From Orrella marina (GTDB lineage: Bacteria; Pseudomonadota; Gammaproteobacteria; Burkholderiales; Burkholderiaceae_B): a stretch of 64,000 nucleotides of DNA. The stretch's first letter is position 1, and the number at the start of each line of letters is the position of its first letter. The notes beneath the pieces are model-generated. The model was not told the origin of the DNA, searched no databases, and worked only from the letters and a program-made list of their open reading frames with translations. Positions 54,041-63,317 of this stretch are shown here, one piece after another. The DNA lies in NCBI RefSeq assembly GCF_003058465.1, contig NZ_CP028901.1:3906001-3970000 (forward strand). Direction: 5' to 3'. Both the position numbers and the translations under genes were made by a program.

Positions 54041-54910
54041 TCAGTGCGGTTTGCCTGGCTTTGCCGAGCCTGGTTTCTCTGAGTCTGGTTGTTGGCAAAT
54101 CCATAAATCGGCGTATTTTGCGAATGTGGAATGCGAAGAGAGTAGCGCCAGGAGCAGTCCTTGCCTGCCGTCCAGGAAGCCAGCCTTGAAGACGTACATT
54201 TTCAGGAAACATCCGAGCGCATGGATCACGCCCTGTCCCAGGCTCGCCTTCTTGCCATGCGATGCCCGCTGTTGCGCCCACAGGCTGGCATACTGTGCAG
54301 ACTTGACCAGATAGTGCTGCAGATCCCGGTAGGTATAGTGCAGCAGGTTTCCATCCAGTTTGATGATGGTCGCATTCGCTGGTTTCATAACATGCTCATG
54401 CACAGTGTCATCCGAATATTGTGTAGCGTCAGTCTGGTAGAGTCGCACCACCCAGTCCGGGTGCCACCCGCTATGCCGGATGAACCGTCCGAACACCCAG
54501 GAAAGCCGGTTGACACTGAACAGGCGCGGGCCAGATGGACTCGTCTGGTTTGTGTCGGAATCATTCGTGCTGTGTTCATGGATGACTTGGCGGATAGATG
54601 CAGCAAGCGCCGGAGTGACGCGCTCATCTGCGTCAATCCAGAACACCCACTTCGCCTGGATATGTTCCTGCGCGGTCCGGCGCTGCAGACCAAACCCCCG
54701 CCAGGCGTTGTGCTCAAAAAACCGAACCTTCGGGAAACGATGGGCGATCTCGGCTGTGTTGTCCTCGCTACCCGAATCCACAATCACGATCTCGTCGGCA
54801 AGATCCTGGCAGCTCTCCAGGCAGGCAGCCAGATTGGAGGCTTCGTTCCTGACGATCATGGCGATCGCAAGTAAGGGTTGTTGTGTGTGGCGGGTGGGTT
54901 CGCTGTTCAT
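54041..54910 (-). CDS. Glycosyltransferase family 2 (WaaE/KdtX-like, LPS core)
   Basis: A 289-residue cytosolic GT-A enzyme. LLAIAMIVRNEASNLAACLES, DEIVIVDSGSEDNTAEIA and the metal-binding WVFWIDADERVTPAL give the GT2 nucleotide-sugar site. The middle RHSGWHPDWVVRLY, DTVHEHVM and the histidine-rich NLLHYTYRDLQHYLVKSAQYASLWAQQ and the C-terminal FLKMYVFKAGFLDGRQGLLLALLSSHSTFAKYA match the WaaE/KdtX group, which adds a beta-glucose to heptose I in the LPS core. Placement beside a heptosyltransferase-like gene supports a role in LPS core. Confidence 0.9.
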   Translation of the reverse strand: MNSEPTRHTQQPLLAIAMIVRNEASNLAACLESCQDLADEIVIVDSGSEDNTAEIAHRFPKVRFFEHNAWRGFGLQRRTAQEHIQAKWVFWIDADERVTPALAASIRQVIHEHSTNDSDTNQTSPSGPRLFSVNRLSWVFGRFIRHSGWHPDWVVRLYQTDATQYSDDTVHEHVMKPANATIIKLDGNLLHYTYRDLQHYLVKSAQYASLWAQQRASHGKKASLGQGVIHALGCFLKMYVFKAGFLDGRQGLLLALLSSHSTFAKYADLWICQQPDSEKPGSAKPGKPH

Positions 54911-55226
54911 GTGCGCATTTTAATGGGCACATGGCCATGACGCTCTGCTTCGCGTGACCCGTGACGTGTTCTTTTCGTATCAGTTTTGCTTGATGGAAAG
55001 ATTACCAGAGTGGGTGGACGCGCCTGATGCGGCTGGCGACACGAACCGGAAGGGGGCTCATTGCTTTCGTTGTCATGCAAATGTCACAAGAATTCAAGCG
55101 GATTTGTATAAACTTCTACTTTTATCGAAATGTCGAAGAGAGGTCGTGGCGATCACTATTCATCGTCCGGACTGAATCGAATCTGGCAAGGCATACCCGA
55201 TCATGAATCGAAACGGAGGTTCCAGG
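54911..55226. other. Upstream region of the ArsJ operon with Pho-box-like and palindromic elements
   Basis: These 316 bases hold no gene, in particular no arsR. TTGTCAT (55070-55076) and ATGTCAC (55081-55087) are separated by GCAA, matching the 7-4-7 Pho-box layout at 11 of 14 positions. TATAAA at 55107-55112, preceded by TG, is a fair -10. An imperfect inverted repeat from CTTCTAC (55113) to GTCGAAG (55132-55138) follows immediately and could bind a repressor. The remaining left part towards the GT2 gene shows nothing recognisable. Confidence 0.55.
55070..55112 (+). promoter_or_regulatory. Candidate Pho-box promoter of the gapdh-arsJ operon
   Basis: Half-sites TTGTCAT at 55070-55076 and ATGTCAC at 55081-55087 are spaced by 4 bases; a third 11-base phase (55092-55098) is degenerate. 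The -10 TATAAA starts at 55107, about 115 bases before the GAPDH start codon. The pattern matches known PhoB sites; control by PhoB is inference from sequence alone. Confidence 0.5.
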
Positions 55227-56276
55227 ATGCGCGTAGGAATAAATGGTATGGGACGAATCGGACGGCTCGCATTGCGGGCCGCTCTCGGTGGTGTGAACCG
55301 TCCTGCTGAGGATCCACGGTTGACGCAGCGTCTGGATGTCGTCCATGTCAACGAGATCAAGGGCGGTGCCGAGGCAGTCGCTCATCTGCTTGAGTTCGAC
55401 ACGACTCAAGGTCGCTGGCGTGAAGACATCCACGCCCCGCAACCAGATCTGATTGAACTCGGAGGGCGACACATTGGTTATTCATCCTTTGCCCATCCCT
55501 CCCGGATTCCGTGGGGCGACCTTGGGGTCGATCTGGTGCTGGAGTGCACCGGGAAGTTCCTGTCCCCGGAAGATCTGCAGGGGCACCTGGATCGAGGTGC
55601 AAAGCAGGTCATCGTTGCCGCCCCGGTCAAGACAGGAAGCGTTCTGAACATCGTGTACGGCGTCAATCACGATTTGTATCAGCCGGGCCATGACAGGATC
55701 GTGACGGCTGCTTCGTGCACCACCAACTGCCTCGCGCCCGTGGTCAAGGTGCTTCACGACTCGATCGGGATTCGTCACGGGCAGATCACGACCATTCATG
55801 ATCCGACCAATACCAATGTGGTGGTCGATGCATTGCACAAGGATCTGCGCAGAGCACGTAGTGCCATGCAGAGCCTGTCACCGACCACGACCGGGAGCGC
55901 GACGGCTATTGCCTTGATTTATCCCGATCTCAAAGGAAAACTCAACGGACATGCGGTCCGTGCCCCTGTACTGAACGCTTCGCTCACGGACTGTGTCTTC
56001 GAGATGCGCAGGGATGTCACGGTCGAGGAGGTCAACGCACTGTTTATGAGCGCGTCCAGAGAAGGGGCGCTTGCCGGCATTCTGGGCTATGAGCAGCGGC
56101 CACTGGTCAGCGCAGACTACGCTGGCGACACCCGGAGTTCGATTGTGGACGCCCTGTCCACCATGGTCACGGACGGCACCCTGCTCAAGGTCTATGCCTG
56201 GTATGACAACGAGATGGGATTCTCCTGCAGAATGGTCGACCTGGCAGGCTATATCCGCGAGCAGGGCCTGTCATGA
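55227..56276 (+). CDS. ArsJ-associated glyceraldehyde-3-phosphate dehydrogenase
   Basis: A 349-residue type I GAPDH. In ArsJ operons this enzyme uses arsenate in place of phosphate and makes 1-arseno-3-phosphoglycerate, which ArsJ expels. ATG 55227 ([20 protein letters not shown]) is preferred over ATG 55203. NAD-binding [35 protein letters not shown], catalytic Cys164 in [22 protein letters not shown] with an insertion typical of this subgroup rather than the glycolytic HSYT, and [15 protein letters not shown] are visible. It overlaps arsJ by 4 bases (ATGA). The glycolytic gap gene is not in this window. Confidence 0.9.
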
Positions 56277-57532
56277 GCCAGTCCGAGCTTGGGCCAGACC
56301 GCGGCGCGGTCCGGCAGTATGCGGTCGTGACGGGTGCCTACTGGGGATTCACCTTGACGGACGGCGCGTTGCGCATGCTGGTTTTGTTGCATTTCTACCA
56401 GCTTGGCTATTCTCCGTTCACGCTGGCCTTTCTGTTCCTGTTGTACGAGTTTGCCGGGGTGCTGGCAAACTTGATTGGTGGCTGGCTGGCGACCCGGTAC
56501 GGCATCACACGCATGCTCAAGATTGGCCTGTCTTTGCAGATTGCCGGCTTTCTATGTCTGTCCGCGCTGTCGCCTCAGTGGTCAGTGACGCTTTCAGTTG
56601 TTTGGGTGGTGATGTCACAAGGCATCTGCGGTGTGGCCAAAGACCTGACCAAGACAGCCTCCAAATCAGCAATCAAGATCACGGCCAGTCAGGCACAAGG
56701 TCAGCTGTTTCGCTGGGTAGCGTGGTTTACGGGCAGCAAGAACGCCATGAAGGGAATTGGGTTCTTTCTGGGTGGATTGCTGCTCCAGGTGCTCGGGTTT
56801 TCTGGTGCGTTATGGGCGATGGCTGCAGGACTGCTTGTCGTGCTGGCTGGCGTGATCTGGCAACTGCCGCCGTTGATGGGGCGCAGCAAGGCTTCATCGA
56901 CTGCCCGTGAACTGTTTGCCAAGAATCGCGCCATCAATCTGCTTGCTGCTGCCAGGGTGTTCCTGTTTGGCGCAAGAGATGTCTGGTTTGTGGTCGGTGT
57001 GCCGGTATTCTTGTATGCATCTGGCTGGACATTCACCATGGTCGGTGCCTTTCTTGCTGTCTGGACGATCGGATACGGAATGGTGCAGGCTGTTGCACCG
57101 CAGTTGGTGCGGCGTAGTCAGGACGGCCTGTCAGCAGAAGTGCCAGCTGCCAGGCTCTGGTCGGGCTTGCTGGCCATTGTGCCGATCGCACTTGCAGTCC
57201 TGGTCAGTCAGAACGTTGCACATCTTGAGTGGTGGGTGGTGGCGGGTCTCGGAATATTCGGGTTTGCGTTTGCAGTCAATTCGTCGGTGCATTCCTATCT
57301 GATTCTTGCGTATGCGGGTTCAGAGAAGGCCGCTGAAGATGTGGGGTTCTACTACGCTGCCAACGCAGCAGGACGACTGATGGGGACGCTGTTATCCGGT
57401 CTGCTCTATCAGTGGGGCGGACTGGTCCTGTCGCTATCGGGGTCAGCCATCATGCTTTGTCTGTGCTGGCTTATCACCTTGATGCTTCCGGTGCGGGCGC
57501 AGTCCGGATCCTCGCAGAGTGTCGCGCGTTAG
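56273..57532 (+). CDS. arsJ: Organoarsenical efflux MFS transporter ArsJ
   Basis: A 419-residue MFS permease with twelve helices that exports 1-arseno-3-phosphoglycerate, which then breaks down to arsenate outside. Signature parts are [77 protein letters not shown] and [21 protein letters not shown]; the KD-TK-SKSA-KI helix is diagnostic of ArsJ. The ATGA overlap couples it to the GAPDH gene. arsR, arsC and acr3 or arsB, often found nearby in other genomes, are absent from the window. Confidence 0.95.
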
Positions 57533-57606: not shown

Positions 57607-58611
57607 TCAGACGGCTGCTGTGGTTGCCTCTGATACCGATTCGATGCGGATGCAGCGTGCCCGGTGAGTGTCATCGATCCAGGTTTCCTGCGGATCAATC
57701 TGACGACATTGTTCAGTTGCCCTGGGACAGCGAGGAGCAAACGAACAGCCCTCTGGCAGGTTAGCCAGATCGGGAGGGGATCCGGCGATCGTTTCAAGTC
57801 GTTCGCCTTTGGCGAACCCGCCATGCGATGCGCTCCTGAGCAATGCCTGGGTATAGGGGTGCGCCGGATGCCGGATGATCTCCCGAACCGGGCCTTCCTC
57901 TACGATTCGTCCCGCATACATTACGGCGATTCGGTCAGCTACTTCGACCGCCGCGCCGATGTCATGGGTCACAAAGATGACCGACAGGCCGAGCTCACGC
58001 TGGAGTTCCCGTAACAGCAGCAAGATCTGGATCTGGACAGTCGCGTCAAGTGCAGTTGTGGGCTCGTCCGCAAGCAGAAGCTTGGGTCGGCTCGCAAGCG
58101 CTAGCGAGATCATGGCGCGTTGGCGCATGCCCCCGGACATCTCGTGCGGATAAGCATTGAGTCGGCGTTGCGGACTCGGGATCCGGACCCGTTCGAACAG
58201 ATCCAGTGCCCGCTGAAGGGCTTCTTCACGGGTTACGTTGTCATGGCGGCGAATGGCTTCGGTGATCTGCTCGCCGACTGTGTAAACGGGATCCAGTGCC
58301 AGCAAAGGCTCCTGGAAGATCATTGACACCTTGCTGCCACGAAAGTCAGCCAGCGCCTTGCCCGAGAGCGTCATGACATCCTGCCCGTCCACCAGGATGC
58401 GTCCTTGCATCTGCGTGCGCCGCGGCGGGTGCAGCTTGAGGACCGATCGCAATGTGACACTTTTACCAGAACCTGACTCACCGATCAGTGCGATGACTTC
58501 GCCACGCTTGACGCTGAGGTTGACGCCGTCAACGGCTTTGACTGGCTTCTTGCCCGCATTGAAAGTGATGTTCAGGTTTTCGATCTTGATGAAGGCGAGA
58601 TCCGTTGTCAT
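57607..58611 (-). CDS. Peptide-type ABC transporter ATP-binding protein (OppD/DppD-like)
   Basis: A 334-residue ATPase, last gene of the importer operon. Walker A IGESGSGKSVTLR, Q-loop IFQEPLLALDPVYTVGEQI, signature EMSGGMRQRAMISLALA, Walker B LLLADEPTTALD and switch VTHDIGAAVEVADRIAVMYAGR are intact. The C-terminal oligopeptide/dipeptide region shows HPYTQALLRSA, AGSPPDLANLPEGCSFAPRCPRATEQC with the four-Cys pattern usual for the family. Starts 4 bases inside the end of the OppF-like gene (ATGA). Confidence 0.94.
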   Translation of the reverse strand: MTTDLAFIKIENLNITFNAGKKPVKAVDGVNLSVKRGEVIALIGESGSGKSVTLRSVLKLHPPRRTQMQGRILVDGQDVMTLSGKALADFRGSKVSMIFQEPLLALDPVYTVGEQITEAIRRHDNVTREEALQRALDLFERVRIPSPQRRLNAYPHEMSGGMRQRAMISLALASRPKLLLADEPTTALDATVQIQILLLLRELQRELGLSVIFVTHDIGAAVEVADRIAVMYAGRIVEEGPVREIIRHPAHPYTQALLRSASHGGFAKGERLETIAGSPPDLANLPEGCSFAPRCPRATEQCRQIDPQETWIDDTHRARCIRIESVSEATTAAV

Positions 58612-59654
58612 GCTGGCTCCTTGATGCGTTCAGGTTTGCGTTTATGCACGAAATCACTATCGGGTTCGTACATCAGACACGCAACAGACTGGCGGTTCTT
58701 ATGCATTCGCAGTTCGGGCTGCGCCTGCTGGCAGGCGGGCTGGGCGTGGATGCAGCGCGTATGAAAGCGACACCCGGCTGGCGGGTTGATCGGATTTGGT
58801 GGGTCGCCAGTGAGTGGTGGCTCCTCAGTCCGGTTATCTGGATCCAGTGACGGGATAGACGACAGCAGAGCGTTGGTATACGGATGCATTGGCGACTCGA
58901 ACATCGTTTCGCAATCACCGATCTCGATGATCTGGCCGAGATACATCACCATGACCCGGTCAGAGATGTACCGCACGACATTGAGGTCATGACTGATGAA
59001 GACGTAGGTCAGCCCAAACTCTTCCTTCAGGTCCAGCAGCAAGTTAAGGACCTGCGCTTCAACCGACTTGTCCAGCGCTGATACTGCTTCATCGAGCACG
59101 ATCAGTCGCGGTTGCAAGGCCAGCGCCCGGGCAATATTGACCCGCTGACGCTGACCGCCTGACAGTTCGTGCGTATAGCGTGCCGCAAACCGTCTGGGTT
59201 CGAGGCCGACGCGCGCGAGCAGGTCATGGGCTCGCTGGATGGATTCCTTGCGGCCGACACCATGGACCTGGGGTGCAAATGCGATCGAGTCTTCAATGGT
59301 GAGACGCGGATTAAGAGACGCATAGCTGTCCTGAAACACCATCTGCGCCTGACGTCTGAATGTTTTAAGGTTCAGGTCACGTCCGACTGTCAGACCATCG
59401 AACACAATGTCCCCCCGGTCCCGGTCGATCAGGTTCATCAGCAGTCTGGCTGTGGTGGATTTGCCGCAGCCCGATTCACCCACTACGCCAAGCGTTTCGC
59501 CCTTGAGGACATCGAATGACACATCATCGACCGCTCTGACAGCGCCGGTTGGACGCCCCAGAAAATCTTTGTTGAGCGCAAAGTGCTTGACCAGGTTCTT
59601 GACGTGCAGCAGTGGCTGTCCTGGTCCACCATAATCCGGATGTTTTGGTTTCAT
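58608..59654 (-). CDS. Peptide-type ABC transporter ATP-binding protein (OppF/DppF-like)
   Basis: A 348-residue ATPase, partner of the OppD-like protein. Walker [17 protein letters not shown]-loop [19 protein letters not shown], signature [17 protein letters not shown], Walker [18 protein letters not shown] and [23 protein letters not shown] are present. The end shows [12 protein letters not shown], then [19 protein letters not shown] with the cysteine pattern. The Walker B reads DEAVSALD rather than DEPTSALD, seen in some family members. It lies 2 bases after the permease gene. In this operon the F-type subunit precedes the D-type one. Confidence 0.94.
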
Positions 59655-59656
59655 GA

Positions 59657-60556
59657 TCAGTCCTTGATTTCCATGGCGCTTCTGAGCCCGTCAGACAGCA
59701 GATTGAAGGCGATTGAGGTGATGAAGATCATCACGCCGGGCAGTGCAGCGATCCATGGCTGTACGTAGATGGCCGTGCGCAACGTGTTGAGCATCAGGCC
59801 CCACTCCGGCTCTGGCGGTTTGACACCAAGCCCAAGGAAGCTCAGTCCTGATGCGAGAATCATGGACACTGCGATCAGACTGGTGGAATATACGAAGATA
59901 GGTCCGAGTACATTGCCCAGCACGTGGACCCGCACAATCGTCATGGCGTTGGCACCAGACGCTCTGGCTGCCTCCACAAAGTCGCGACTTCGGATCTGCG
60001 TGGTTACGCTTTCTGCCACCCGCGCAATCGGTGCGATGAACACCAGCGTGAGCGAGATCAGTGAGTTGGTGATGCCTGCCCCGAGTACGCCCGAGAGTGC
60101 GATGGCCAGCAGCACCGACGGGAACGCGTAGAACACATCGATCGTGCGCATGATGAGGCTGTTGATCCAGCCACCGGCGTAGCCTGCAATGATGCCGATC
60201 ACTGACCCGATCACGAATGCGAAGATTACCGGGGTGATTCCCATGAAAAGCGACAGTCGTGCCCCCACGATGAGTCGTGACAGCATGTCGCGACCCAGTT
60301 CGTCTGTGCCCAGTGGGTGACCTTCAAAGCCGATCGGCTTGAGGCGTTTCATGATCGAGCTCTGATACGGATCATCAGGAGCTAGCCAGGGGCCAAATAT
60401 GCCCATGGTGATCAGCGCCAGAATCACCAGAGCGGCACCCATAGCGACCGGGTCGCGCAGAAGTCGTTTGACGACGTTTTCCCAGTAGCCGGCAGATCGT
60501 TCGAAGACCAGCTCGGGAACCTTGGACGGATTGACCGTCACACTGAGTGAGTTCAT
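59657..60556 (-). CDS. Peptide-type ABC transporter permease (DppC-like)
   Basis: A 299-residue inner membrane subunit with an N-terminal OppC_N segment (RLLRDPVAMGAALVILALITMGIFGPWLAPDDPYQ) followed by HPLGTDELGRDMLSRLIVGARLSL and six helices overall. The ATPase-docking loop is VEAARASGANAMTIVRVHVLGNVLGPIFV, and the end has LSFLGLGVKPPEPEWGLML, typical of DppC. 23 bases separate it from the DppB-like gene. Confidence 0.94.
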   Translation of the reverse strand: MNSLSVTVNPSKVPELVFERSAGYWENVVKRLLRDPVAMGAALVILALITMGIFGPWLAPDDPYQSSIMKRLKPIGFEGHPLGTDELGRDMLSRLIVGARLSLFMGITPVIFAFVIGSVIGIIAGYAGGWINSLIMRTIDVFYAFPSVLLAIALSGVLGAGITNSLISLTLVFIAPIARVAESVTTQIRSRDFVEAARASGANAMTIVRVHVLGNVLGPIFVYSTSLIAVSMILASGLSFLGLGVKPPEPEWGLMLNTLRTAIYVQPWIAALPGVMIFITSIAFNLLSDGLRSAMEIKD

Positions 60557-60579
60557 TTCAGTTTCTCCGTGAATCTGGG

Positions 60580-61533
60580 TCAGGTACGCGCGATGCGCGG
60601 ATCAAGAATGCTCTGCATGGTGTCCACGATTAGGTTCAGCACAACGAAGAACGTTGCGAGCACCAGAATCGTTCCCTGGAGCAGAGGCAGATCACGCTGG
60701 AAGATGGCTGAATTGAGCAGCAGGCCTGTTCCCGGCCAGGAGAACACGGTCTCGATGAGGATGGAGCCTCCCAGCAGATAGCCGAGTTGCAAGCCCATCA
60801 CGGCCAGTGCGGTGGGAGCTGCGTTCTTGACGACGTGCCAGAAGATACCCAGATCTGTCAGTCCTTTGGCGCGCAGACCAACAATGAATTCCTGGTTCAG
60901 GATTTCAGCGACCAGTGCGCGAACGGTGCGGGCGATGATTCCCATGGGGATCACGCTCATGGTGATGGCGGGCAGGATGATGTGTTGGATGTGTACCCAG
61001 TTCCATTGCCAGTCGCTTGATCCGCCTGGACCCGCACCACTGGGTGGCAGCCACATCAGGGTGGAGCTGAAGATGATCACGAGAACCATACCCAGCCAGT
61101 AGTGTGGAACACTCACACCTAGAACCGAAGTAGCCGAGGCGGCTTTGTCGATCCATGAGTTCTGGAAGTAGCCCGCTACAAACCCGAACAGACAGCCGAG
61201 CACAAAGCCGATCAGGGTTGCGACCCATGCCAGTCGCAAGGTGTTGACCACGGCCGTCATCACTTCCTGTGTGACTGGGCGTCCGGTAGCGATCGAGGTT
61301 CCCAGGTCTCCTTGCAATGCTCGTCCGATCCAGGAGATGAACTGTTCATACAGGGGGCGATCGAAACCGTAGAGCTGGCGCAACTGGTTTTGCAACTCAA
61401 CAGACGCGTCGGCAGGCAGGATAGAAACCAGGGGGTCACCGGGTGACAGGTGAACCAGCGCAAAGCAGACCAGTGCGACACCGAGCATGATGGGCACGGT
61501 GTAGATGATTCTTCTGATCAGGAAATTCAGCAT
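60580..61533 (-). CDS. Peptide-type ABC transporter permease (DppB-like)
   Basis: A 317-residue inner membrane subunit beginning MLNFLIRRIIYTVPIMLGVALVCFALVHLSPGDP, with LRQLYGFDRPLYEQFISWIGRALQGDLGTS, then LVAEILNQEFIVGLRAKGLTDLGIFWHVVKNAAPTALAVMGLQLGYLLGGSILIETVFSWPGTG, both hallmarks of DppB. Six helices. It is separated from the binding-protein gene upstream by 107 bases that contain three consecutive hairpins, which probably set its expression below that of the binding protein. Confidence 0.95.
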   Translation of the reverse strand: MLNFLIRRIIYTVPIMLGVALVCFALVHLSPGDPLVSILPADASVELQNQLRQLYGFDRPLYEQFISWIGRALQGDLGTSIATGRPVTQEVMTAVVNTLRLAWVATLIGFVLGCLFGFVAGYFQNSWIDKAASATSVLGVSVPHYWLGMVLVIIFSSTLMWLPPSGAGPGGSSDWQWNWVHIQHIILPAITMSVIPMGIIARTVRALVAEILNQEFIVGLRAKGLTDLGIFWHVVKNAAPTALAVMGLQLGYLLGGSILIETVFSWPGTGLLLNSAIFQRDLPLLQGTILVLATFFVVLNLIVDTMQSILDPRIART

Positions 61534-61560
61534 GGGGTACCTCGAATTGACAAGTCAGGC

Positions 61561-61632
61561 AGGACCATGACGTCCTGCAGAGCCCTGACGGGCAAGTGCC
61601 CGCCAGGGCGGACAGGGCGAGTGCCCTGTTCC
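61561..61632 (-). promoter_or_regulatory. Three consecutive hairpins between binding-protein and permease genes
   Basis: AGGAC (61561) pairs with GTCCT (61572-61576). CCCTG-A-CGGGC (61583-61593) pairs with GCCCG-C-CAGGG (61598-61608) around AAGT. GGACAGGGC (61610-61618) pairs with GCCCTGTTCC (61623-61632) around GAGT with one bulge. They follow the stop of the binding-protein gene on the minus strand. Such elements commonly stabilise the upstream mRNA part after processing; the role here is inferred. Confidence 0.6.
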
Positions 61633-61640
61633 GGTCACTA

Positions 61641-63317
61641 CTACTGCATCGACATTGGTGCGATATCGATGAACCAGCTCTTGGGCTGGACTACACCTTG
61701 CACTTTCGGGCTCATGACGCGAGGTCCAGTGTCGTGTGCAATCCAGACAAAGGGGGCTTCCTCGACGATCTTGGCGTGTAGCTTGGCCAGTGCCGCGTCA
61801 CGGGCCTCGTCCTCGAAGGTCGTCCGGGCGTTGGCGATCAGTTCGTCAAGCTCCGGGCTGGTGAAGTAGCCCCAGTTATTCGACACTGGAGGCAAGGCAC
61901 CACTACTGGAAAAACGTACCATTGCAAAGAATGGATCCATGGCCGCGAAGCTCACGTTGGTGGCCGTGGCACCGTTGGCCGACGGATCCTTGGCACCTTT
62001 GCGCCAGTTGGTAAAGAGGGTGTTCCATTCGATGACATCGAACTCGATGTCGATGAAGCACTCCTTCAGGGACTGCTGGACGTATTCGTTCATGGGCAGA
62101 GGCTGCATCTGACCTGAACCGGATGCCGAGATCTGTACCTTGGTCTTCATCGGTTTGTCCGCCGAGTAGCCAGCTTCCTGCATCAGTTTCTTGGCGGCGT
62201 CCGGGTCGTAACGGATGTCAAACGTCGGATTACCCCACCATGGGTGTCCGGGCGGTACCGTTCCTTTGGGGATGCCCATCTGTCCGCCGAGCAGTGTCTT
62301 CAGCCCTTCGCGATCCACGCACAGATTGGCTGCGTGCCTGACACGCTTGTCGTTCCAGGGTGAGCCTTCGACAAACGACAGTTGCCAGGGCCAGACGTGT
62401 GGCTGGGGGTTGCTGTAGATCTTGAACCCGCGTGATTCCATTTGCGGAATGGCGTCTGGGGAGGGGGCCTCGATCCAGTCGACCTGCCCGGAGAGCAGCG
62501 CAGCTGTTCTCGCGTTGGCTTCAGGCATCGGGATCATGATCACCCGGTCAAGGGTGGGCGTGCGCTTGGGGTCCCAGTAATCCTTGTTGGCGACAACCTC
62601 CAGGCGTTCACGCGGGACAAAACGATCCATTTTGAATGGGCCTGTTCCGGATGCATCTGAGGCAAAAGCGATCCAGGCCTGCTTGGCACGTTCGGATGGG
62701 TCGGTCACATTAGCGGGTACCGCGTCGTACTTGGCCTGCCAGTGCGTCGGTGATGCCATGAACAGATTGGTCAGGTTGATCGGCAGGAACGAGTCTGGTT
62801 CACTCGTGGTGAGTTCAACAGTGAAGTCATCAATCTTGCGCGCACTGCGTAGTGTGGGCATGCGCGAAGCAGTGACACCCACCTGACTTGCATCAAAATG
62901 TGGTGCGTTCTGGTCCAGCACTTTCTGTACGTTCCAGACGACCGCATCGGCGTTGAACGGCGATCCATCGTGGAATTTAATGCCGTCGCGCAATTTGAAG
63001 ATCCACTTGGTCTGATCCTGCGGATCAACTTGCCAGGAGGTCGCCAGGCCCGGAATCAGTACACTCGGGTTGTCGTAACTCGACAGATCCCAGTGAGTCA
63101 GCGCGTCGTACATCGGGATGCCGCTAAACCGGTTGCCTTCAAAGCCTTGATCGGGCTGACCCAGTGTGCGGGGAATGTCTGCTGCAGTCATGCCGATACG
63201 CAGTACTTTCTCCTGTGCGGCGACCGGGCCCGCCGTAACGGCCATGAGTGCGGCGCAAATCGCAGCCAGTCGCAGTGGTCCGAATGTGCGGCGGTGAGTG
63301 GGTGATGTCGATTTCAT
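61641..63317 (-). CDS. Peptide-type ABC transporter substrate-binding protein (DppA/OppA-like)
   Basis: A 558-residue periplasmic protein of solute-binding family 5. A Sec signal peptide (MKSTSPTHRRTFGPLRLAAICAALMAVTAG, cleavage near VAAQ) leads into EKVLRIGMTAADIPRTLGQPDQG, YDALTHWDLSSYD, PGLATSWQVDPQDQTKWIFKLRDGIKFHDGSPFNADAVVWNV (the SBP_bac_5 signature) and NLCVDREGLKTLLGGQMGIPKGTVPPGHPWWG. The ligand may be a peptide, an amide or another small molecule. It is the first gene of the operon and divergent from a hydantoin-racemase-like gene, suggesting a hydantoin- or N-carbamoyl-amino-acid-related ligand, but this is not shown. Confidence 0.93.
   Translation of the reverse strand: MKSTSPTHRRTFGPLRLAAICAALMAVTAGPVAAQEKVLRIGMTAADIPRTLGQPDQGFEGNRFSGIPMYDALTHWDLSSYDNPSVLIPGLATSWQVDPQDQTKWIFKLRDGIKFHDGSPFNADAVVWNVQKVLDQNAPHFDASQVGVTASRMPTLRSARKIDDFTVELTTSEPDSFLPINLTNLFMASPTHWQAKYDAVPANVTDPSERAKQAWIAFASDASGTGPFKMDRFVPRERLEVVANKDYWDPKRTPTLDRVIMIPMPEANARTAALLSGQVDWIEAPSPDAIPQMESRGFKIYSNPQPHVWPWQLSFVEGSPWNDKRVRHAANLCVDREGLKTLLGGQMGIPKGTVPPGHPWWGNPTFDIRYDPDAAKKLMQEAGYSADKPMKTKVQISASGSGQMQPLPMNEYVQQSLKECFIDIEFDVIEWNTLFTNWRKGAKDPSANGATATNVSFAAMDPFFAMVRFSSSGALPPVSNNWGYFTSPELDELIANARTTFEDEARDAALAKLHAKIVEEAPFVWIAHDTGPRVMSPKVQGVVQPKSWFIDIAPMSMQ

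Follow-up and report, generated by a model that had tools for sequence, protein, structure and literature searches.

A conserved Pho box in phase with an ArsR-type inverted repeat ahead of gapdh-arsJ in Orrella marina and its relatives

Arsenate enters cells via phosphate transporters, and the danger that it poses is set by the ratio of arsenate to phosphate. In the pathway quoted in PMC5930303, a glyceraldehyde-3-phosphate dehydrogenase (GAPDH) makes 1-arseno-3-phosphoglycerate and ArsJ exports it, whereas PMC9601151, in the part available, argues that ArsJ exports free arsenate. Described systems built from these two gene families come from Pseudomonas aeruginosa DK2, Halomonas GFAJ-1 and the var operon of Vibrio cholerae, the last of which is arsenate-inducible and encodes ArsR (PMC9601151). 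Here we analyse the gapdh-arsJ operon of Orrella marina, which uses the same two families and lies in a window of 64,000 nucleotides (nt), this being the whole stretch of DNA that was analysed (G000:C1:3906001-3970000), taken from a 4.23 Mb genome in one contig. No PhoB site is mentioned for those systems in the accessible portions of PMC5930303 and PMC9601151; in the Orrella operon, in contrast, a Pho box is present and arsR is unlinked. We find that the gapdh-arsJ promoter is a real, conserved and precisely phased two-element promoter, and its sequence makes it reasonably probable that the operon belongs to the Pho regulon and has a composite promoter that PhoB would activate and ArsR would repress.

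Regulatory contacts between arsenic and phosphate have been reported in several bacteria. In Halomonas sp. HAL1, PhoB binds a Pho box before aioBA at low phosphate, as determined by one-hybrid assay and gel shift (PMC4563254, available in part). The likeness to our locus is that a Pho box stands ahead of an arsenic gene, here as a prediction from sequence; the HAL1 case differs in that aioBA encodes an arsenite oxidase, that the box is antisense and spans -21 to -3 of aioB, and that the accessible text of PMC4563254 describes no ArsR operator at the promoter. Likewise, in Agrobacterium tumefaciens 5A ArsR and the phosphate system meet in transcription, since ArsR1 controls pstS1/phoB1 according to the parts of PMC7965956 and PMC7533571 at hand; there, however, an arsenic regulator acts on phosphate genes, whereas here the prediction runs the other way, from the phosphate regulator to the gene of an arsenic exporter. 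Cyanobacterial clusters of pstS/sphX, gap3 and a major facilitator superfamily (MFS) gene have been linked with phosphate limitation (PMC9846622, PMC4284471, each in part), and in RNA-seq of Nodularia such limitation raised the ArsJ-associated GAPDH (log2 1.57 and 2.41) more than ArsJ (0.29 and 1.20) (PMC9846622). Nodularia differs from the present case, as it belongs to another phylum, its arsR is linked with a transcript that fell, and the authors, in the portion available, found no Pho box (PMC9846622). Arsenic-phosphate islands are also known (PMC3834237, PMC3954881, in part), and the arsB gene of Crocosphaera is induced by phosphate starvation (cited in PMC4284471), so that starvation-induced arsenic efflux is, as a general idea, already known. 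An earlier reading of this DNA, made from the letters alone and referred to below as the sequence-only reading, had called PhoB control of ArsJ operons an idea not known to be described. For the proteobacteria we found no description of PhoB acting at arsJ, or of a Pho box there, in the partly available literature, a body of text that leaves subscription journals mostly uncovered and is thus weak evidence of absence.

The operon consists of the gene for the ArsJ-associated GAPDH (gapdh; 55227..56276, plus strand) and arsJ, encoding an MFS efflux permease (56273..57532, plus strand), which overlaps the gapdh stop by 4 bases. The identity first given to the two genes is borne out by scores of 520.2 bits for NF033735 (cut-off 450) and 531.9 bits for NF033734 (cut-off 400), and arsJ is the sole above-cut-off match to NF033734 in the genome. 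The gapdh open reading frame first opens at 55203, and the ATG at 55227, with GGAGG ahead of it, is the likelier start. By family assignment the pair is an ArsJ/GAPDH arsenate-export operon whose export activity is predicted. Also as first read, arsR is not linked to the operon: a PF01022 profile search of the whole 64-kb window gave no match, and all six matches in the genome lie outside the window. At least two ars-type arsR genes are present among the genes of this genome.

Pho promoters of the Escherichia coli type, such as those of pstS and phoU, have two 7-bp repeats separated by 4 bp, a -10 ten nt downstream and no -35; upon phosphate starvation, repeats of this kind are bound by PhoB, which then recruits RNA polymerase. 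The Pho box TTGTCAT-GCAA-ATGTCAC at 55070..55087 (plus strand) and the TATAAA at 55107 have the sequence and position that were first assigned to them. The box consists of two 7-bp direct repeats, TTGTCAT (55070-55076) and ATGTCAC (55081-55087), which are putative PhoB half-sites with an 11-bp period across the 4-bp GCAA spacer, and it matches 13 of 14 consensus positions. Compared with the E. coli type, the target here is an arsenate exporter, an ArsR-type element is interlocked with the promoter and the box of the window lies one repeat higher. As a lone 18-mer the box is only moderately improbable by chance: YTGTCAY-N4-YTGTCAY with at most one mismatch occurs twice in the window (the second time within gapdh, on the minus strand) against a chance mean of 0.40, with 9 of 100 shuffles reaching two, and the genome as a whole has 28 matches, compared with 14 to a reversed control pattern. 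It stands above chance because the same promoter keeps the box in relatives.

For this comparison, 80 named arsJ loci, the best of 581 found when ranked by ArsJ similarity, were combined with six same-genus operons and the window to give 87 loci. A readable gapdh start was available for 82 (L070 is a stretch without GAPDH, and GAPDH is cut in L081, L113, L136 and L140), and removal of near-copies left 77, mostly from Burkholderiales; L007, which is the window itself, was omitted. When the 200 nt ahead of gapdh were scored, 49 of the 77 upstreams held a Pho box of at least 12/14 and 31 held one of at least 13/14. On the reverse strand of the same upstreams there were two and none, respectively, and over 100 dinucleotide shuffles the mean was 0.58 at the lower threshold (maximum 3 of 77) and 0.03 at the higher (maximum 1). 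Replacing the 4-nt spacer by any other length from 0 to 11 gave between 0 and 5 of 77 boxes at the lower threshold. The pattern also emerged from a motif-free scan of 5-mer pairs 6-24 nt apart, in which TGTCA repeated at 11 nt was the commonest pair (15/77), and TGTCAT was the most enriched 6-mer across the upstreams. All six scored same-genus operons (L147-L152) have boxes of 13-14/14. A -10 of at least 4/6 begins exactly 10 nt past the box in 38 of the 49 box-bearing loci, and in the relatives the last base of this -10 is the first base of an inverted repeat.

Upstreams of acr3 from the same taxonomic family served as a control. A box of at least 12/14 was found in 1 of 30 (23 of them distinct), as on the reverse strand (1/30), compared with 45 of 68 arsJ upstreams given an equal 1500-nt treatment (reverse 5/68). 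Since the box is common before arsJ and rare before acr3, we conclude that it goes with arsJ and not with arsenic promoters generally. The candidate explanation that a Pho box is a general trait of the family's ars promoters was rejected on the acr3 count. One exception was seen in relative G002, where the upstream of arsR-arsC-acr3 (L279) holds a perfect 14/14 Pho box, TTGTCATACATTTGTCAC, located 4 nt ahead of an ArsR-type repeat; the corresponding operons of G001, G005, G007 and G008 have weaker 11/14 boxes close to the repeat. Judged from these sites, phosphate control may reach core ars operons in the genus. Eight family-draw genomes (L317-L324) have identical scores and sites before acr3, which is expected for a mobile arsenic cluster.

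Boxes of the same kind stand before other genes of the O. marina genome. PhoB is encoded (TIGR02154, 365.7 bits, cut-off 296.2; 19 of the 20 genome matches to this model fall under the cut-off), and similar boxes precede the PstS-like, phoU, PPK2 and phosphonate-binding-protein genes, with a box to -10 spacing of 10 nt at pstS, phoU and PPK2. The PstS-like protein scores 135.6 bits, under the NCBIfam cut-off of 206.6 and above the Pfam PBP_like_2 threshold. The boxes before the genes for a calcineurin-like phosphoesterase and the PPK2 polyphosphate kinase (L043 and L052) have one mismatch each, and these two genes are likely to be further members of the Pho regulon.

The second element of the promoter is the inverted repeat TTCTAC-TTTT-ATCGAA at 55114..55129 (plus strand), which resembles an ArsR operator and matches 11 of 12 positions of TTCRAY-N4-RTYGAA, departing from it in the TTCTAC arm. 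This consensus was derived from aligned gapdh-arsJ promoters, just downstream of the box. A repeat of at least 11/12 is present in 38 of the 77 orthologous upstreams (50 shuffles: mean 0.64, maximum 4), a score that is partly circular, to the detriment of our reading, because the consensus was read from the same loci. Across the window the chance mean is 1.74 matches, so that a single match is unsurprising and the argument for the repeat of the window rests on position and phasing. In a test that avoids the circularity, 51 upstreams were aligned on the repeat only, and TGTCA-N6-TGTCA appeared at fixed positions. Where both elements are present (box of at least 12, repeat of at least 10), the end of the box lies 15 or 16 nt from the repeat in 28 of 37 loci. 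Independent of the source of the consensus is the presence of the repeat before arsR-acr3. When the acr3-adjacent arsR of O. marina was used to search the genus, matches were found in 8 of 9 genomes, and the repeat before arsR(-arsC)-acr3 scores at least 11/12 in five of seven relatives (G001, G003, G005, G006 and G008) and 10/12 in G002 and G007; in the wider acr3 set it reaches at least 11/12 in 11 of 30 loci. None of the scored same-genus gapdh-arsJ operons has an adjacent arsR in the stretch seen, and the repeat is still 10-12/12 in these operons. Because the repeat is shared with the arsR(-arsC)-acr3 promoters of the genus, the element is probably an operator for an ArsR acting in trans, and one ArsR serving both promoters would be the simplest reading. 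The conservation, spacing and co-phasing of the two elements are computed results, as are the PhoB gene and the sister Pho-regulon promoters.

From these results we infer binding, the direction of regulation, an AND-type logic and the identity of the acting ArsR. In the proposed mechanism, phosphorylated PhoB would bind the direct repeats at 55070-55087 during phosphate starvation and recruit RNA polymerase to the gapdh-arsJ promoter, in which a good -35 is lacking. An ArsR encoded elsewhere would bind the inverted repeat over the -10 and start region and block the promoter as long as the cell is arsenic-free. ArsR leaves its operator upon arsenite, and arsenite would thus release the repressor, the best candidate for which is the product of the arsR adjoining acr3 near 3.046 Mb. 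Output would peak with phosphate scarce and arsenic present. No sigma-70-type -35/-10 pair was found in the window promoter, which is compatible with, but no proof of, an activator-dependent promoter. The PhoB control put forward in the sequence-only reading is strongly supported at the level of the family by conservation, geometry, the lack of the box before acr3, the sister promoters and PhoB itself, whereas the promoter of the window is atypical. We regard PhoB control as likely for the family and as probable, with less assurance, for the window strain, and we consider it likely that an ArsR acts in trans in addition to PhoB.

A number of findings weigh against this reading, some of them in the window promoter itself. 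No -10 was found about 10 nt after the box: the -10 region is either TATAAA (55107-55112), as first proposed, or TAAACT (55109-55114; together 55107..55114, plus strand), and these begin 19 and 21 nt past the box compared with 10 in the relatives. TAAACT fits the register of the family, its final T being the first base of the inverted repeat. Furthermore, the half-site closest to the -10 has decayed. Stepping up from the repeat by 15 nt and then in 11-bp steps, one meets ATTCAAG (2/7), ATGTCAC (6/7) and TTGTCAT (7/7); the first of these (55092..55098, plus strand) would be a degenerate third half-site, weak by sequence, in the place of the relatives' -10-proximal half-site. The box of the window ends 26 nt from the repeat (15 + 11) instead of the usual 15-16, and on this sequence its good half-site pair is shifted up by one 11-bp repeat with the 11-bp register retained. 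Because the good pair lies one repeat higher, the strength of PhoB control is less certain in the window than in the relatives, and PhoB may act here via a tandem array or more weakly. A distance of 26 nt from box to repeat was also found in L129 and L132, which are not exact parallels of the window because a -10-like hexamer can be read near their boxes. The operator assignment has its own difficulty, in that the best candidates elsewhere in the genome score 10/12 (arsR-acr3) and 9/12 (the second ars-type arsR); a repeat of 10/12 goes with a third, more distant arsR. Finally, if ArsJ exports 1-arseno-3-phosphoglycerate, each arsenate exported would cost a phosphate ester, which is odd for a starvation gene.

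The breadth of the pattern is a further point on the same side. The named loci are the top 80 of 581, and related genomes do not count as independent. In a class-wide draw, 77 of 370 genomes were above cut-off and gave 72 loci with 42 scorable gapdh upstreams; the box preceded gapdh in only 8 of these 42 (reverse 0/42), and of the arsR-first operons 3 of 17 had a box ahead of arsR. In a draw from the family (23 of 229 genomes above cut-off, 19 additional loci, 16 scorable, nine being copies of named loci) the box was present in 7 of 16, and only 2 of 7 previously unseen loci had it. Within the named set, Thauera and Zoogloea loci have box scores of 9-11, and two alphaproteobacterial loci score 10 and 8. 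These scores indicate that the box is a lineage trait of part of the Burkholderiales and not universal to arsJ. Metagenome-assembled genomes (MAGs) labelled Bordetella parapertussis (L090, L096, L097, L102, L129 and L138) fall among arsJ loci of freshwater betaproteobacteria and seem to be mislabelled.

The explanation that survives best beside PhoB-plus-ArsR control is that PhoB alone controls the operon, in which case starvation would pre-arm arsenate export, ArsR would not be involved and the repeat would be a relic. The window has no arsR, the TTCTAC arm of its repeat is off consensus, and some relatives look PhoB-only from their sequences. No arsR lies within 4 kb of 24 upstreams, and eight of these (L073, L076, L080, L086, L119, L135, L138 and L145) have a box of at least 12 and a repeat of at most 9/12 in the next 45 nt. 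A search with the ArsR of O. marina found no match in the genomes of five of these eight (L076, L080, L086, L119 and L138) and a match for L073, L135 and L145. PF01022 gave matches in all seven genomes tried, and the readable proteins are mostly BigR-like or other regulators, the genome of L086 holding an unclassified ArsR-family protein (L299); in Zwartia vadi (L080), an isolate among the five without a match to ArsR, the two PF01022 matches are BigR-like and LuxR-like by eye. Absence of ArsR is provisional, because several of the box-only genomes are draft MAGs. For the window strain, however, the repeat is retained at 11/12 in the family position relative to the -10, its same-genus counterparts score 10-12/12 and the genome has at least two ars-type arsR genes, so that we consider control by PhoB alone unlikely. 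The sequence-only reading had PhoB acting without ArsR: the PhoB half of that claim is supported, while an ArsR-operator-like repeat, overlooked then, is retained in the promoter. Pre-arming fits best those relatives without a repeat. What did not stand is the proposal that the Pho box is there for want of an arsR, since a box is found in 33 of 53 loci with arsR within 4 kb and in 16 of 24 without; on these counts, the idea that PhoB stands in for an absent arsR was rejected.

Stated for the Burkholderiales as a whole, the two-regulator reading would make GAPDH-ArsJ export a core phosphate-starvation response, in which PhoB activates and ArsR represses at fixed phasing and the promoter fires only at low phosphate in the presence of arsenic. 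Lineages that have lost the ArsR input would be left with PhoB alone and be armed for arsenate export ahead of any encounter with arsenate. We hold the odds of this wider statement to be even.

The converse explanation is that an ArsR acting in trans is the only regulator, the Pho box of the window being a remnant that no longer works because it was displaced from the -10 by one repeat. The spacing of 19-21 nt instead of 10 and the decayed proximal half-site would suit such a remnant; its remaining half-sites, however, still match 13 of 14 positions and have kept their 11-bp phase relative to the -10 and the repeat, L129 and L132 have the same 26-nt distance, and a neutral relic would be expected to have decayed more. 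We therefore judge this explanation decidedly improbable. Related OmpR-family regulators read similar direct repeats, and the 19 matches to the PhoB model under its cut-off leave room for one of them to bind the TGTCA repeats; the fact that pstS, phoU and PPK2 of this genome are preceded by the same box, at the 10-nt spacing of the family, argues for PhoB and makes another regulator very improbable. That the box is a chance match and the operon constitutive or served by an unrecognised promoter is hardly credible: about 0.4 boxes with at most one mismatch are expected per 64 kb, but this box is conserved at the orthologous promoter, and chance was rejected on conservation, the shuffle, reverse-strand and acr3 controls, and phasing.

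Were PhoB-plus-ArsR control of gapdh-arsJ correct, a promoter sensing both phosphate and arsenic would meet the problem of the arsenate to phosphate ratio directly at the molecular level, and an arsenic exporter would join the Pho regulon in a broad group of bacteria from fresh water and soil. Arsenic efflux would then be predicted in low-phosphate waters, and ArsR-based arsenic biosensors using such promoters would be phosphate-dependent. It would also sharpen the question of the ArsJ substrate, because starvation control is paradoxical if 1-arseno-3-phosphoglycerate is exported and would not be if, as PMC9601151 argues in the part available, the substrate is free arsenate.

The neighbours of the operon were read by eye. 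Upstream of gapdh lies a divergent glycosyltransferase-like open reading frame (54041-54910, minus strand), and downstream of arsJ a convergent one for an oligopeptide-type ATP-binding cassette (ABC) transporter ATPase (57607-58611, minus strand). The latter belongs to a full oligopeptide-type ABC transporter set right after arsJ and convergent to it (57607-63317, minus strand), made up of two ATPases, two permeases and one binding protein. Elsewhere in the O. marina genome, a dense arsenic cluster (L164; G000:C1:2139000-2152000), likewise read by eye from translations, contains arsR, several arsC-like genes, an ACR3-like transporter, and arsH-like and copper-type genes.

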